From an uncultured Opitutia bacterium (GTDB lineage Bacteria; Verrucomicrobiota; Verrucomicrobiia; Opitutales; JABJCN01), in contig CAJWWL010000005.1 of NCBI GenBank assembly GCA_913048125.1, positions 1-33,564 on the forward strand: DNA of 33,564 bases, given 5' to 3'. Below are positions 6,806 to 21,676 of this stretch, piece by piece. Position numbers and translations under genes: made by a program. The notes below the pieces were generated by a model. That model was not told the origin of the DNA. It was given only the letters and a program-made list of their open reading frames with translations, and made no database searches. Numbering within the stretch: position 1 is the stretch's first letter; each line of letters opens with the position of its first letter.

Positions 6806-7741
6806 TCAAGCCCACTTCTTTTGGAATCTTCCAATTGCAGGTGCTAGCATTTCACTAACTAGACCATCAAAGTCCCTGCCAGTACACATTGCGCTCATTG
6901 GCAGAAGACTATTCTCGGTCATTCCAGGCAGAGTATTTATTTCAAGCAAGAAGACCTCCCAACGTTTTCCATTTTCCTTTAGGATGAAGTCAGCCCGGGC
7001 AAAATCCCTACAGCTGCAAGCTCTGAAAATTACCTCAGCAGCAGACGTAATTGCCGTGTGCATCTTTTCAGTTATGCGAGCAGGGTACTCATAGTCAGTG
7101 AGACCATTGGTGTATTTAGAGTCATAATCATAGTCTCCACTCTTTGGAAGAATTTCAACAACACCTAGAGCTTTACCATTAAGTATGCCTACACTCATCT
7201 CGCGGCCCTGTATTCGTTTCTCTATGATCCAATCACCGTGGGGTAGACCTTCTAAATGATTTCTAATTTGCTGTTTTCCCTTAACAAAATGCAGCCCTAA
7301 ACTTGAACCTCCTTCGCTAGGTTTAACTACGATTTCATCACCAAGCGCCTTGAGTTCATGATCAAGGTCAACGTCATCGAGGGGATTGAACATAAATCCA
7401 GGAACAACCTTTAAGTTGGCAGCTACAGCTAAGTCCTTGGTGGTGGATTTATTAATGCAATTCCGACTAGCTCTTGCGCAACTGCCAGCATAAATAACTC
7501 CTTGCTTGTCAAGAAGGTCCTGTAAACGACCATCCTCCCCAAAGCTGCCATGCAATGCTGGAAAAACTATCGTATTGTCGTCACGAACATTACCCGGTAA
7601 CCGCAACCCCTGCAAGTCGACCAACTCAGTTCGATCCCAACTCTTGAGAATGGCTTTATGTATAGCCTCTCCTGAGCGAAGAGATACTTCTCGTTCACCA
7701 CCGTCACCTCCATACAGTACAATTATACTCAGATCCTTCAT
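6806..7741 (-). CDS. ddl: D-alanine--D-alanine ligase
   Basis: ATP-grasp motifs (YGGDGGEREVSLRSG, VKPSEGGSSLGLHFVK, FLLEINTLPGMTENSLLP). The likely start is the ATG at 7741, overlapping the murCB stop (ATGA). The ORF track start at 7756 is an upstream in-frame alternative. Confidence 0.92.
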   Translation of the reverse strand: MKDLSIIVLYGGDGGEREVSLRSGEAIHKAILKSWDRTELVDLQGLRLPGNVRDDNTIVFPALHGSFGEDGRLQDLLDKQGVIYAGSCARASRNCINKSTTKDLAVAANLKVVPGFMFNPLDDVDLDHELKALGDEIVVKPSEGGSSLGLHFVKGKQQIRNHLEGLPHGDWIIEKRIQGREMSVGILNGKALGVVEILPKSGDYDYDSKYTNGLTDYEYPARITEKMHTAITSAAEVIFRACSCRDFARADFILKENGKRWEVFLLEINTLPGMTENSLLPMSAMCTGRDFDGLVSEMLAPAIGRFQKKWA

Positions 7742-10023
7742 AGTGTTTTGTCCCAATTTGTTCCCAGAAGTTCGACTTCAGGAAATAGTTCTAGTTTATG
7801 AGCCGACCAAACTTCTTTTCTTACAGTCCGGACTAACTCAGCGACATCGCCGTATCTTGCATCTCCTACATTGACTATGAAATTTCCGTGTACTGAAGAT
7901 ACTTCAGCCCCCCCGATACGTTTTCCTTTAAGTCCAACGTCGTCAATAAGTTGACCCGCGTAGTAGCCTTCGGGGTTTCTAAAAATGCAACCTGCACTAG
8001 ACTCACGAGGCTGTGTAGAACGCCTTCTTTTCGCAAAGCTCCGCATTCGAGAACGAATAGCATCAGGCGTATCTTCAACTGGGCTTTCTAAAATGGCACA
8101 GAGTGCAAGCCTATCCTCCAGTCCAGTACAACGTCGATATCCCGGACGGAAAACCTCTCTTGAGAGTAACTCAATTTGTCCCCTATCGTTCATAACCGTA
8201 ACCTCTTCGACAAAGTCAAAAATCCAGCTACCCATGGCACCAGCATTCATCTTTAGCGCACCGCCGATTGAACCGGGAATTCCTTCGAGAAATTCAAAAC
8301 CAGAAATCCCACATGCACAAGCACGGTTAGCAACTTCACCGAGACGGGCTCCTCCACCAACGCGTATTTGGCCACTCTTCAGAACATTTACGCTTCTCCA
8401 GAATGGACGACTTAAACGGATGACAATGCCAGGAAAACCTTCATCAGAAACAATCAAATTTGAACCTCTACCTAGAATGTAATGAGGTAAGCCAAACATA
8501 GCTGCACTCTCTAGAAGTTGCAAAAGATCTTCCATTGAATCTGGTTCAGCATAAAACTTGGCTTTCCCACCAATTTTCAATGTAGTTTTGTTGTGTAAAC
8601 TTTCGCCAGTACGGAGGCGCCCATTAGGAGATAATTGAGGGCGAAGATATTCTAGCCATTCCTTTTCAACTGAACCATTATTACGACAGATAGCTCCGAA
8701 AAGTCGTGCAGGTTTCTCTATTGAGCCTGCGCCGATAAAAAGGATAACCGATGGTTTATCCTGCTCCTTAAGCATACGTTTGAGACGTGTGTGTCCGGGT
8801 AACCAATACAAAAATTCTGCATCCGGCATAAGCTGCCTAAGGGAACCAAGATCACCTTCGTCCTGATGACTTTCCCCAGCGGAATAAACTGGGAGAACAA
8901 ACAACTGATCAGCATTATTCAACTCTCGTGCAAAAGCCTCACGAAATTGTGCGGTTCGGCTGTATCTATGAGGCTGAAATACTACAACCTTTCTCCGGTT
9001 CGGATACCACTCACTTGTCGCATCTAGAAGGGCTGAGATTTCAGTAGGGTGATGAGCGTAATCAGCGATAACGGAGAGTTTACTTGACTCATAAAGAACA
9101 GACTGCCGCCTATTAATACCGCTAAAATCCGACAAACCATCACTAAATTCACGAAGACCCATGGAGTGGCCTAGAGCCAAGGCTGCAAGAGCATTCTGTA
9201 GGTTAAACTTTCCTCGAGTTGCAACATTTACTGACTTATCCGAAAATCGTCCACATAGACGAAGTTCAGTACCGGTCTCGACTTCAGTATTGGATTCAAT
9301 CTCATAATCACCTTGTTCACCAAATAAGTGAACATTAACATCTGACTCAGGTAAAATATCAATGAGATGCTCAGCTTGAGAATATGGAAGTAGCAACTGT
9401 CCAGTAGTCCTAGTAAACAACCTTCCAAAAGCTTCTCTCAATTCTTCTTCTGAGCGGTAAAAGTCAGGGTGATCCCAATCCAGATTAGTAAGCAAAGTAA
9501 TCTCAGGTGATACTTCCTCAATGCCACCATCACTCTCATCTACCTCTGCAACAAGCCAATCCGAATTTGCTGACCAAGCAGGATCTAAATTTTCATCGTT
9601 GAAAAGCCCCCCCCCTATGAAATTAGCAGGAAATCCTCTAGCATTTAATAGATGAGCCAACATGTGAGCAGTTGTGGTCTTACCGTGACTACCAACTACG
9701 GCTACTAGACGCTTACCCTCGGCTTGCTTAGCTAGCATGCTTCCACGTTTTATAATCTGAATGCCAGCCTTCCTTGCTCGAATGAGCATGGGGTGAGTAT
9801 GAGAAATCGCACTAGAATATACGAGTAGGTCCCCGCTCTCAAGTCCGTCAAGGTTGGAAGAAATAATAACTCCTGAGCGATCGAGTATCTCCCTTACTTG
9901 TTCTGAAAGAGAATCATCAAACCCGTGAACAGTATTACCAATCTTCGAAAGATATACAGCCAATGGAGCCATCCCCATTCCACCAACACCGACCATGTAA
10001 ATTGTTTGCTTTTTATTCATCAT
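7738..10023 (-). CDS. murC/murB: Bifunctional MurC (UDP-MurNAc--L-Ala ligase) / MurB (UDP-MurNAc dehydrogenase) fusion
   Basis: Single 761-aa ORF. N-terminal MurC motifs (GVGGMGMAPLA, GSHGKTTTAHMLAHLL, DYAHHPTEI). C-terminal type-II-like MurB (KIGGKAKFYAEP, GRGSNLIVSDEGFPGIVIRL, GIPGSIGGALKMNAGAMG, SSAGCIFRNPEGYYAGQLIDDVGLKG). Confidence 0.93.
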   Translation of the reverse strand: MMNKKQTIYMVGVGGMGMAPLAVYLSKIGNTVHGFDDSLSEQVREILDRSGVIISSNLDGLESGDLLVYSSAISHTHPMLIRARKAGIQIIKRGSMLAKQAEGKRLVAVVGSHGKTTTAHMLAHLLNARGFPANFIGGGLFNDENLDPAWSANSDWLVAEVDESDGGIEEVSPEITLLTNLDWDHPDFYRSEEELREAFGRLFTRTTGQLLLPYSQAEHLIDILPESDVNVHLFGEQGDYEIESNTEVETGTELRLCGRFSDKSVNVATRGKFNLQNALAALALGHSMGLREFSDGLSDFSGINRRQSVLYESSKLSVIADYAHHPTEISALLDATSEWYPNRRKVVVFQPHRYSRTAQFREAFARELNNADQLFVLPVYSAGESHQDEGDLGSLRQLMPDAEFLYWLPGHTRLKRMLKEQDKPSVILFIGAGSIEKPARLFGAICRNNGSVEKEWLEYLRPQLSPNGRLRTGESLHNKTTLKIGGKAKFYAEPDSMEDLLQLLESAAMFGLPHYILGRGSNLIVSDEGFPGIVIRLSRPFWRSVNVLKSGQIRVGGGARLGEVANRACACGISGFEFLEGIPGSIGGALKMNAGAMGSWIFDFVEEVTVMNDRGQIELLSREVFRPGYRRCTGLEDRLALCAILESPVEDTPDAIRSRMRSFAKRRRSTQPRESSAGCIFRNPEGYYAGQLIDDVGLKGKRIGGAEVSSVHGNFIVNVGDARYGDVAELVRTVRKEVWSAHKLELFPEVELLGTNWDKTL

Positions 10024-13541: not shown

Positions 13542-13877
13542 TTAACCTGGTTTTTTGTGAACTTTGAGTTTCTGTCCGACCCGAAGTCCACGCGCATCAG
13601 TTATACCATTAATTTGCATCAATGTTGCCGTAGTCATGCCGTATGCTGCAGCTATGGTTGATGGGTTTTCACCTTGGGAAACGGTATGAGTATGTTTGTC
13701 GTCCAATGGGAGAACTGCCGCATTCTCGACCCTCTTCACAGAATCTAAATCAGCGATTTCATCCGCAGTGACTATAGCGTCTGTAACCTTTGGTTCCCGA
13801 CTAATCTGCAGTATAACCAAGGGTATGGCTAATAAATGAATACCCAGAACAACTGTGAAAATCTTTAAAGTTTTCAT
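13542..13877 (-). CDS. Single-TM protein with one C-terminal LysM domain
   Basis: N-terminal hydrophobic segment MKTLKIFTVVLGIHLLAIPLVIL. LysM motif HTVSQGENPSTIAAAYGMTTATLMQINGI...GQKLKVH. The ORF track begins at 13916 (GTG); the ATG at 13877 is preferred because the TM segment starts there. Confidence 0.8.
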   Translation of the reverse strand: MKTLKIFTVVLGIHLLAIPLVILQISREPKVTDAIVTADEIADLDSVKRVENAAVLPLDDKHTHTVSQGENPSTIAAAYGMTTATLMQINGITDARGLRVGQKLKVHKKPG

Positions 13878-13908
13878 AGTTTTAAGCCCACATCTACTTT
13901 GGTATGCC

Positions 13909-15204
13909 TCATGCACTAAGTAAGGAATTTTGCTGACGTAATTCTGTCACAGCATTAATGAATTTGTTACCTCGATCTTCATAGTTTGAAAATTGGTCAA
14001 AACTTGAAAATCCAGGGCTAAAAAGTATTACGCTAGGACTGTCAGCACGCATATATGCAGCTAACAGTGCGTTCTGTAGGCCCGCATATGACTCTACAAA
14101 GGTACCGCTATCAGAAAGGAGGTTTTGCAGTGACGTTGAAGTTTCACCTATCAGATAGGCTCCTTCAAGATAAGGCAGTATTTCATTAGCAAAAGAGCCA
14201 ATCTCGCCACCCTTGGAGTGTCCACCGCCAATCCAATGAACCTTATGCCCAAATCGTTTTAATGCAGCTAGGGTTGCACCAAAATTTGTTGCCTTAGAAT
14301 CATTCCAGAAACTTATACCATTCCATTCAGCAACACGTTGCAACCTGTGTCTCGGTAAACTAAAGCGACGTGCTGCTTGCTCGAGTACATTTGTATTGAA
14401 CCCGGATATTTCCCAAAAGTTTCTCGCGAGATTATAATTCTCACGCTGAGGCCATTTTGAAAATAGGGTGTCTTCAATGTTACCTAGGTTACTTGAGTCC
14501 TTTTCGTCTAGGATTATGGTATGATTGGGTAGTGAATATCCAAGTTTTTCTGAGGTTTCTGAAACAGAGGAACCAACAATCAATCGTGGTGAACACAAAC
14601 GCTCAACTAGCCGATACTTGGCTTTAAAGTAACCTTCCATTGAATCATGTCTGTCGAGGTGATCAGCAGACATATTCGTCCATAGCAATGTATCTGGCAC
14701 AAAGTGATTCATTGATTCGGACTGGAAAGAGCTTACTTCACAAAGTGCAATTGCCTTATCGCTGTTAAGGTCGGGAATTAATTGAGATAGAGGCATACCT
14801 ATATTCCCAACAGCAAAGGCATCTTGGCCGTTAAGCCGTAAAGCTTCTGTAAGAAACTTTGTTAAAGATGTCTTACCGTTTGTACCAGTAATTGCTACGA
14901 TTCGTCCCTTCCAAAAAATTGATGCGAAGTCCATCTCACCAAGGCAAATTAACCCATGCTGACGAGCTTTCTGTAACCACGGGTGACCTTGAGAAAAACC
15001 AGGACTGTAAATCACTAATTCATGTCGCGTCGCATGGAAATCTTCAAAACTTCGGGATGCACCCATCGAACCCAACTGATCAAAATACTCGGCTGATACA
15101 CCCAAGTGATTAAGTAACCGTCCGACAGACCTTCCGCTTACCCCAGATCCAAATACAGCAACTGGTCTGTTTAACGTTTTTAGAATCTCTTGGGTGTCTA
15201 ACAT
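13909..15204 (-). CDS. murD: UDP-MurNAc-L-Ala--D-Glu ligase MurD
   Basis: Mur ligase motif AITGTNGKTSLTKFLTEAL, SADHLDRH, NDSKATN, C-terminal LFSPGFSSFDQFSNYEDRGNKF. Confidence 0.95.
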   Translation of the reverse strand: MLDTQEILKTLNRPVAVFGSGVSGRSVGRLLNHLGVSAEYFDQLGSMGASRSFEDFHATRHELVIYSPGFSQGHPWLQKARQHGLICLGEMDFASIFWKGRIVAITGTNGKTSLTKFLTEALRLNGQDAFAVGNIGMPLSQLIPDLNSDKAIALCEVSSFQSESMNHFVPDTLLWTNMSADHLDRHDSMEGYFKAKYRLVERLCSPRLIVGSSVSETSEKLGYSLPNHTIILDEKDSSNLGNIEDTLFSKWPQRENYNLARNFWEISGFNTNVLEQAARRFSLPRHRLQRVAEWNGISFWNDSKATNFGATLAALKRFGHKVHWIGGGHSKGGEIGSFANEILPYLEGAYLIGETSTSLQNLLSDSGTFVESYAGLQNALLAAYMRADSPSVILFSPGFSSFDQFSNYEDRGNKFINAVTELRQQNSLLSA

Positions 15205-15211
15205 AAGTATT

Positions 15212-16558
15212 TCAGCGGATTTTTAGGGTTGCTAGCCCGACAAGGGCAAAAATTAGTGATAAAATCCAAAAGCGGATCACGACCTTAGTTTCAGCCCATC
15301 CTGAAAGTTCAAAATGGTGATGTATTGGAGCCATTTTCAGGATTCGCTTTCCGTTAAGTTTGTAGTTCCCGACTTGCAAGATAACCGAAAGCGCTTCCAT
15401 AACGAAAATTCCACCAACTATAACCAATGTGAATGGTTGCTGTACCATGAAGGCAATTGAACCAACTAGACCGCCAAGTGCTAGCGATCCTGTATCTCCC
15501 ATAAAGACCTCAGCGGGGGCAGAGTTATACCAAAGAAAGGATAGACACGCTCCCAGTAGTGCAGTGCAAATCACTGTAAGTTCACCAACACCTAGAACTT
15601 GCTCAATCAATAAGGTGTCAGACAAAACAAAGTTGCCAACAACGTATGCCATTACCCCGTAAGCTAAAGCGACAGTAACTGTACATCCTGTCGCAAGACC
15701 ATCTAGACCATCTGTAAGATTTATGGCATTACTAGATCCCACCAGAACAAAAAAGAGTAGAATACCAATTCCCCAGACTGGTGCACCATCCACAAGAACG
15801 TGTCTGTAAAATGGAATCCAAACTTCCCGCATATTCTGACTACTTAAATCGGCACTAAGTAAAATCCCTAGGGCAAGAACAGTCACCACGGACTGACCAA
15901 GCATCTTAAACCTACCGGGCAATCCCTTACTGTTCTTTTTCGATACCTTGAGGTAGTCGTCTAAAAATCCAACCAGTGATAGTCCAAGGTAGACGACTAA
16001 TGCAGTCAACAGGTAGGAGTTTAAACGGTAGTCGCTAACACGGGTTTCAATGTAAGCCTCCATGCAAGTCCCTTCATCATAGACTACATCATCACCATCA
16101 AAGTCTAGTGAACCATGATACGCTTGCTCCCAATTATCAGCAATTCCATCGTGGTCGGCATCAAATTGAGCACTTAGCCCACATTCAGAACATTTATCGT
16201 TGATTCGAGAAAGCTGAAAGGAATTACCACATTGAACACAATTGTGATCAACGAATGTAACTTCTTGAAAAGGATCTGCCCAAAGGACCGTACTTACGAT
16301 AAGTGCGATCAAAATGATAACTCCTCCCATTGTAGGAGTACCCTGCTTTTCCTTGTGTAGGTTAGCTAAATCTTCACCCACCTCGTCCTTGGTTCGAACT
16401 GCTTGTTTAAAATTGGCAAGCCTTCGAATAACCCAGGGAGCAATCCAGTAACCAACAAGCAAAGCAGTTAACCCTGCCATCATTGCCCTGAAGGTGATGT
16501 ATTGGAAAAGCCGGAAAGGCCCGAATATGTCCTCGTAACCAGCTAAATAGCTTAACAT
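15212..16558 (-). CDS. mraY: Phospho-MurNAc-pentapeptide translocase MraY with a ~80-aa insertion
   Basis: GTPTMGG, GFLDDYLKVSKKNSKGL, NAINLTDGLDGLA, FMGDTGSLALGG, MAPIHHHFELSGW. 448 aa, longer than the ~360 aa typical of the family. Confidence 0.95.
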   Translation of the reverse strand: MLSYLAGYEDIFGPFRLFQYITFRAMMAGLTALLVGYWIAPWVIRRLANFKQAVRTKDEVGEDLANLHKEKQGTPTMGGVIILIALIVSTVLWADPFQEVTFVDHNCVQCGNSFQLSRINDKCSECGLSAQFDADHDGIADNWEQAYHGSLDFDGDDVVYDEGTCMEAYIETRVSDYRLNSYLLTALVVYLGLSLVGFLDDYLKVSKKNSKGLPGRFKMLGQSVVTVLALGILLSADLSSQNMREVWIPFYRHVLVDGAPVWGIGILLFFVLVGSSNAINLTDGLDGLATGCTVTVALAYGVMAYVVGNFVLSDTLLIEQVLGVGELTVICTALLGACLSFLWYNSAPAEVFMGDTGSLALGGLVGSIAFMVQQPFTLVIVGGIFVMEALSVILQVGNYKLNGKRILKMAPIHHHFELSGWAETKVVIRFWILSLIFALVGLATLKIR

Positions 16559-21346: not shown

Positions 21347-21676
21347 TCAGGGTTTAGAAATTGCTAACTGAGGTGGGCTTCTGTAAGAATCCGGAACCCA
21401 AATGATTTGATTTTGTAACGAGGGTCTAACACTGGCCGGAATCCCGGCCTTCAAAACCTCAGGCGTGTGAGATTCAGCAATTTTGGCGTCAATATCTTGC
21501 AGACTCAGCACAATCTTCGCTTGTTCAATCTGCATCTGGTTTATACGCTTAGCGCTTTGTGCTATCTTTGTGCGCATCCACACAACACCCATTCCACCAA
21601 AGCATGCGATCACAAGGATGAGCAGAGAAAGGCATATCGTTAAAGGGTTCATTGCTACCTGCTTACTAAGCTTCAT
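21347..21676 (-). CDS. ftsL: FtsL-like small bitopic membrane protein
   Basis: 109 aa, one TM followed by a coiled-coil-like segment, at the canonical ftsL position between rsmH and ftsI. The assignment is mainly positional. Start overlaps the rsmH stop (ATGA). Confidence 0.6.
   Translation of the reverse strand: MKLSKQVAMNPLTICLSLLILVIACFGGMGVVWMRTKIAQSAKRINQMQIEQAKIVLSLQDIDAKIAESHTPEVLKAGIPASVRPSLQNQIIWVPDSYRSPPQLAISKP

Follow-up and report, generated by a model that had tools for sequence, protein, structure and literature searches.

The MraY encoded in the 33,564-nt stretch of DNA analysed here (the window) is a catalytically ordinary MraY that carries an 83-aa insertion in the periplasmic loop between TM2 and TM3 (Table 1). 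We consider it somewhat better than an even chance (roughly 0.55) that this is a captured extracytoplasmic domain, consisting of a Cys/His ribbon-like hairpin and a TSP3 unit with one intact Ca2+ loop, which is maintained by selection. On this account the insertion would have been captured once, in the ancestor of a marine Opitutales genus; a single TSP3 unit of the bacterial type, in which just one Ca2+ loop is intact, would come after the zinc-ribbon-like hairpin, and the whole would sit on the periplasmic face of the enzyme, its fold maintained by selection. Almost all bacteria have MraY, which is an essential enzyme and a target for drugs; that its extracytoplasmic face might serve in regulation is a recent proposal.

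Table 1. Positions of the insert and related features in the window (residue numbers refer to the window MraY)
Feature	Residues	Positions	Strand	Basis
mraY, phospho-N-acetylmuramoyl-pentapeptide transferase with insertion	448 aa	15212..16558	-	TIGR00445, catalytic residues, TM core
83-aa insertion, TM2-TM3 loop	97-179	16022..16270	-	Absent from 123 insert-less MraYs, present in 3/3 congeners
Zinc-ribbon-like hairpin (H105, C107, C110, C123, C126)	105-126	16181..16246	-	Cys/His conservation, predicted strands 97-107 and 112-116
Putative calcium loop, TSP3/EF-hand type (DADHDGIADNWE)	133-144	16127..16162	-	Seven motif residues invariant in three congeners; TSP3 profile matches
Putative second half of TSP3 pair, loop ligands lost, TC-M-[ED]-A-Y kept, helix predicted	155-172	16043..16096	-	L157 match; helix 165-171
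Periplasmic helix over proposed lipid II feedback site; T315 = E. coli Y227	309-316 (E. coli 221-228)	15611..15634	-	MraY alignment; PMC10914600

The identity of the enzyme rests on several independent features. The open reading frame matches TIGR00445 at equivalog level (E=8.5e-106; 354 bits, cut-off 192), as well as PF00953 and MraY_sig1, and the catalytic residues D200/D201 (the DD motif), D283, D286 and HHH413-415 are invariant in an alignment of 60 MraYs (A2). In the AF2 model, pLDDT values for the core are mostly >90 and the ten-TM fold is recovered; the model superposes on E. coli MraY (8g01) with a TMt of 0.91, and its transmembrane core matches those of solved MraYs. The likeness to the known enzymes (TIGR00445; E. 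coli 8G01, Aquifex aeolicus 4J72) covers the entire transmembrane core, the catalytic residues and the operon position (murF-mraY-murD). The window MraY differs from both structures by the 83-aa insertion, and from the E. coli enzyme by a Thr in place of the periplasmic-helix Tyr (Y227).

The inserted segment, F97-L179, is in frame and without a stop, and is flanked by WADP at the end of TM2 and NSYLLTAL at the start of TM3. Relatives read, for example, WAEP followed directly by NVYVLTAL at this site, and so no sequence was lost on insertion. The first-pass annotation had recognized the insertion at 16025-16270; comparison with relatives bears out the insertion itself, but extends its span by one codon, to 16022-16270. 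The two motifs that it had described, CxxC-x12-CxxC and DxDxDGIADNWE, are present, and the periplasmic location that it had proposed agrees with published work, in which MraY has ten TM helices with both termini periplasmic (PMC4790310), and with the fit of the model to the E. coli structure. Because GTPTMGG precedes TM2 and DD follows TM3, this topology makes the TM2-TM3 loop, and with it the inserted domain, periplasmic. With a pI of 4.05 the insert is acidic, and it is rich in cysteine (five observed, 0.25 expected from the TSP3 proteins of the genus). AF2 places strands at 97-107, 112-116 and 173-179 and helices at 142-147 and 165-171, but it does so with low confidence (42-79 for the insert in the MraY context, 43 for the insert folded alone), which counts against our preferred reading.

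Within the genus, the insert occurs in all three genomes available as congeners, namely the window genome (G000), G001 (CAJWSN010000087, a MAG titled uncultured Opitutae bacterium, ERR599156) and G002. The MraY of G001 is 74% identical overall to that of the window, and the insert is 83 aa in both of these complete copies. The G002 MraY ends at the contig end at residue 161, inside the insert, and the remaining mraY and murD are absent from the assembly. Among the three congeners, the inserts are 41-53% identical. In 123 of 123 insert-less MraYs (48 from the same order and 75 from other phyla), the aligned TM2-TM3 loop is 22-23 aa with no extra residue; the loop hardly varies, and among the proteins compared the insertion is unique to the genus. 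A profile of the insert (A1), run against 373 order and 388 phylum genomes (E<1e-3 and 1e-5), found no full-length homologous insert outside the genus. Among the papers listed by full-text searches on MraY insertion/calcium binding and on MraY in Verrucomicrobia/dcw, none reports a periplasmic insertion in MraY in its title or abstract.

Judged by its profile matches, the C-terminal two thirds of the insert is a bacterial TSP3 (TSP3_bac) unit. The insert profile matches dozens of TSP3 units with E down to 4e-7; outside the genus, nearly all matches fall at profile positions 34-76 (the stretch 34-67, in some cases as far as 76), with a few reaching back to position 15, and they lie in large exported-type TSP3 proteins. 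The L157 unit (DNDGLPDWWEQYYFG...NGTTCIQMYIAGL), for instance, aligns over positions 35-76 (E=3e-6). The TSP3_bac model itself scores below the Pfam gathering cut-off of 25 bits on the G001 insert (E=0.0015, 18.7 bits), and for the G000 insert no TSP3_bac match is listed. The loop residues DxDxDGxxDxWE are identical in the three congeners, and all seven motif residues are invariant, the Asp ligands among them; the profile matches bear out the earlier description of this calcium-binding-type pattern as TSP3-like. TSP3_bac repeats number 26 in the window genome, spread over about ten proteins, and G000:C301 reads DADEDHLVDSWEQEHFGSLEMHGRDDPDEDGLTNREEY, parallel to DADHDGIADNWEQAYHGSLDFDGDDVVYDEGTCMEAY of the insert. 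From this parallel and the TSP3 matches, we take the insert to represent one TSP3 pair in which the first Ca2+ loop is intact and the second degenerate. It resembles TSP3_bac (PF18884), and TSP3 proteins of the same genome such as G000:C301, in the spacing DxDxDGxxDxWE...G.L and in a T-x-x-E-x-Y-like second half, but differs in being a single sub-cut-off unit with one degenerate loop, outside any array and inside a polytopic membrane enzyme. We infer that Ca2+, and probably also Zn2+, is bound by the insert. A 940-aa open frame at G000:C57:13929-15356, with about 14 TSP3_bac repeats, holds the longest such array of the genome.

The N-terminal third of the insert has the pattern H-x-C-x2-C-x12-C-x2-C-G. 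A CxxC and then a CPxCG-type knuckle, at a 12-residue spacing, are typical of zinc ribbons. H105, C107, C123 and C126 are invariant in the three congeners, while C110 is Glu in G001, which leaves three ribbon cysteines in G001 and four in G000 and G002; the invariant H105 could act as an alternative ligand. No zinc-ribbon family matches the insert significantly (best DZR 0.024, HypA 0.02), the best PDB look-alike of the hairpin is the RPB12 zinc ribbon at a non-significant E=0.056, and among 87 relatives there is no convincing homologue of the ribbon half, two other matches being weak. The hairpin shares C-x2-C-x12-C-x2-C-G and a predicted beta hairpin with zinc ribbons such as RPB12/RPABC4, DZR and FmdB-like proteins, but is extracytoplasmic, has one variable Cys and lacks a significant family match. 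The four-Cys zinc ribbon of the first-pass annotation is therefore borne out only in part, because of the Glu at C110 in G001 and the sub-threshold library matches.

These same cysteines might instead form disulphides, so that the module would be a rigid spacer, stapled by Ca2+ and by disulphides, with no zinc site. We think this rather unlikely, although it would suit the periplasmic location, the conservation of a fifth cysteine (C165, in TCMEAY) in both complete copies and the even number of cysteines (four) in the G001 insert. The G000 insert has an odd number, five, and both the ribbon-typical spacing of the CxxC and knuckle and the alignment to RPB12, though not significant, argue for zinc.

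Whether the insert does anything at all is addressed by its pattern of conservation. Between G000 and G001, dN/dS is 0.46 in the insert and 0.05 in the MraY body (dS is saturated), so that by this measure the rate in the insert is about nine times that in the body. This rate, the confinement of the insert to one genus, and the degradation of one ribbon Cys and of the second Ca2+ loop are what one would expect of a tolerated passenger, that is, a TSP3-type segment drifting near-neutrally in a permissive surface loop with no part in MraY control. Of 65 insert columns, 23 are invariant in the three congeners, and these are concentrated in the motifs, with 10 of 11 ribbon Cys and Ca2+-loop residues invariant versus 13 of 54 positions elsewhere (Fisher p=5.5e-5); the insert is thus relaxed overall yet constrained at its motifs. 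Against a passenger, the G000 and G001 inserts are free of indels despite saturated synonymous divergence, and none of the seven Ca2+-loop residues varies among the three species, which together indicate that the fold itself is under selection. We regard a passenger as fairly unlikely, although selection on the fold may serve only to avoid misfolding of an essential enzyme.

Within the preferred reading of a captured and selected domain, the sequence suggests a regulatory or docking role. Flipped lipid II has been proposed to inhibit MraY by binding to the periplasmic side of the dimer interface, at a site whose contacts include Y21, T23, W217, F224, Y227 and K358; MraY variants substituted at this site are hyperactive (PMC10914600). 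The proposed feedback residues Y21/T23/Y227/K358 are not all kept in the window MraY: Y20, T22 and K446 are present, but the position of Y227 is T315, as it is in both complete insert-bearing MraYs. The equivalent Tyr is kept in 75 of 75 MraYs from other phyla and in 42 of 48 order relatives. The insert clade shows 18 changes of its own in the MraY body, and five of them fall at residues 312-322, overlapping the periplasmic helix (scan p ~0.009). The substitution lies on the same protein face as the feedback site and at a residue at which selection has yielded hyperactive variants (PMC10914600), but here it is natural and accompanied by an inserted domain.

That Y227 is lost only where the insert is present was considered, since the Tyr was kept in 104 of 104 sequences, and was rejected when a wider order sample added six insert-less relatives in which the Y227 equivalent is lost or replaced (L171-L173, L175, L179 and L180, belonging to several divergent families). 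L180 is without that stretch of the periplasmic helix entirely, as is the solved MraY 5jnq. Because of these six, the association between the insert and Y227 loss is only suggestive; the sequences represent effectively one insertion event, and the link to the feedback site is weak because there are just two complete copies. We hold it improbable that control of lipid I synthesis has been rewired from outside, with the Y227 feedback contact lost and a captured Ca2+/Zn2+-binding domain taking over. If this were true, MraY would respond to calcium outside the cell or to some partner in the periplasm. A natural MraY with both an inserted domain and a changed feedback residue offers a ready-made test of whether, and in what way, the enzyme is controlled from outside.

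It is also conceivable, but quite improbable, that the domain shields the periplasmic face of MraY from phage or bacterial inhibitors acting from the membrane or periplasm; the phage lysis protein E does inhibit MraY in the YES complex (8g01; PMC10914600), but no phage or inhibitor of the genus is known here. Finally, MAG contigs are error-prone, and that of G002 stops inside the insert. An assembly error, frameshift or chimera can nevertheless be dismissed, because the insert is in frame in three independent and diverged genomes, open and of equal length in the complete copies, and, in G002, continuous as far as its contig runs.

A possible partner of the inserted domain is a small membrane-anchored LysM protein. 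It is encoded at 13542-13916 (reverse strand; 124 aa from GTG), is anchored in the membrane by its N terminus and has a single LysM domain, and lies between murD and ftsW, two genes downstream of mraY and next to a LysM lipoprotein-like gene. G001 also has it (114 aa), and two relatives without the insert (L036 and L037) have a single, larger LysM gene at the murD-ftsW position. Elsewhere in the window, a 109-aa open reading frame without a Pfam match (21347-21676, reverse strand) sits in the place of ftsL, flanked by rsmH (mraW) and ftsI, and the dcw cluster includes a 761-aa MurC-MurB fusion (7738-10023, reverse strand), which combines Mur ligase domains with FAD-binding and MurB_C domains.
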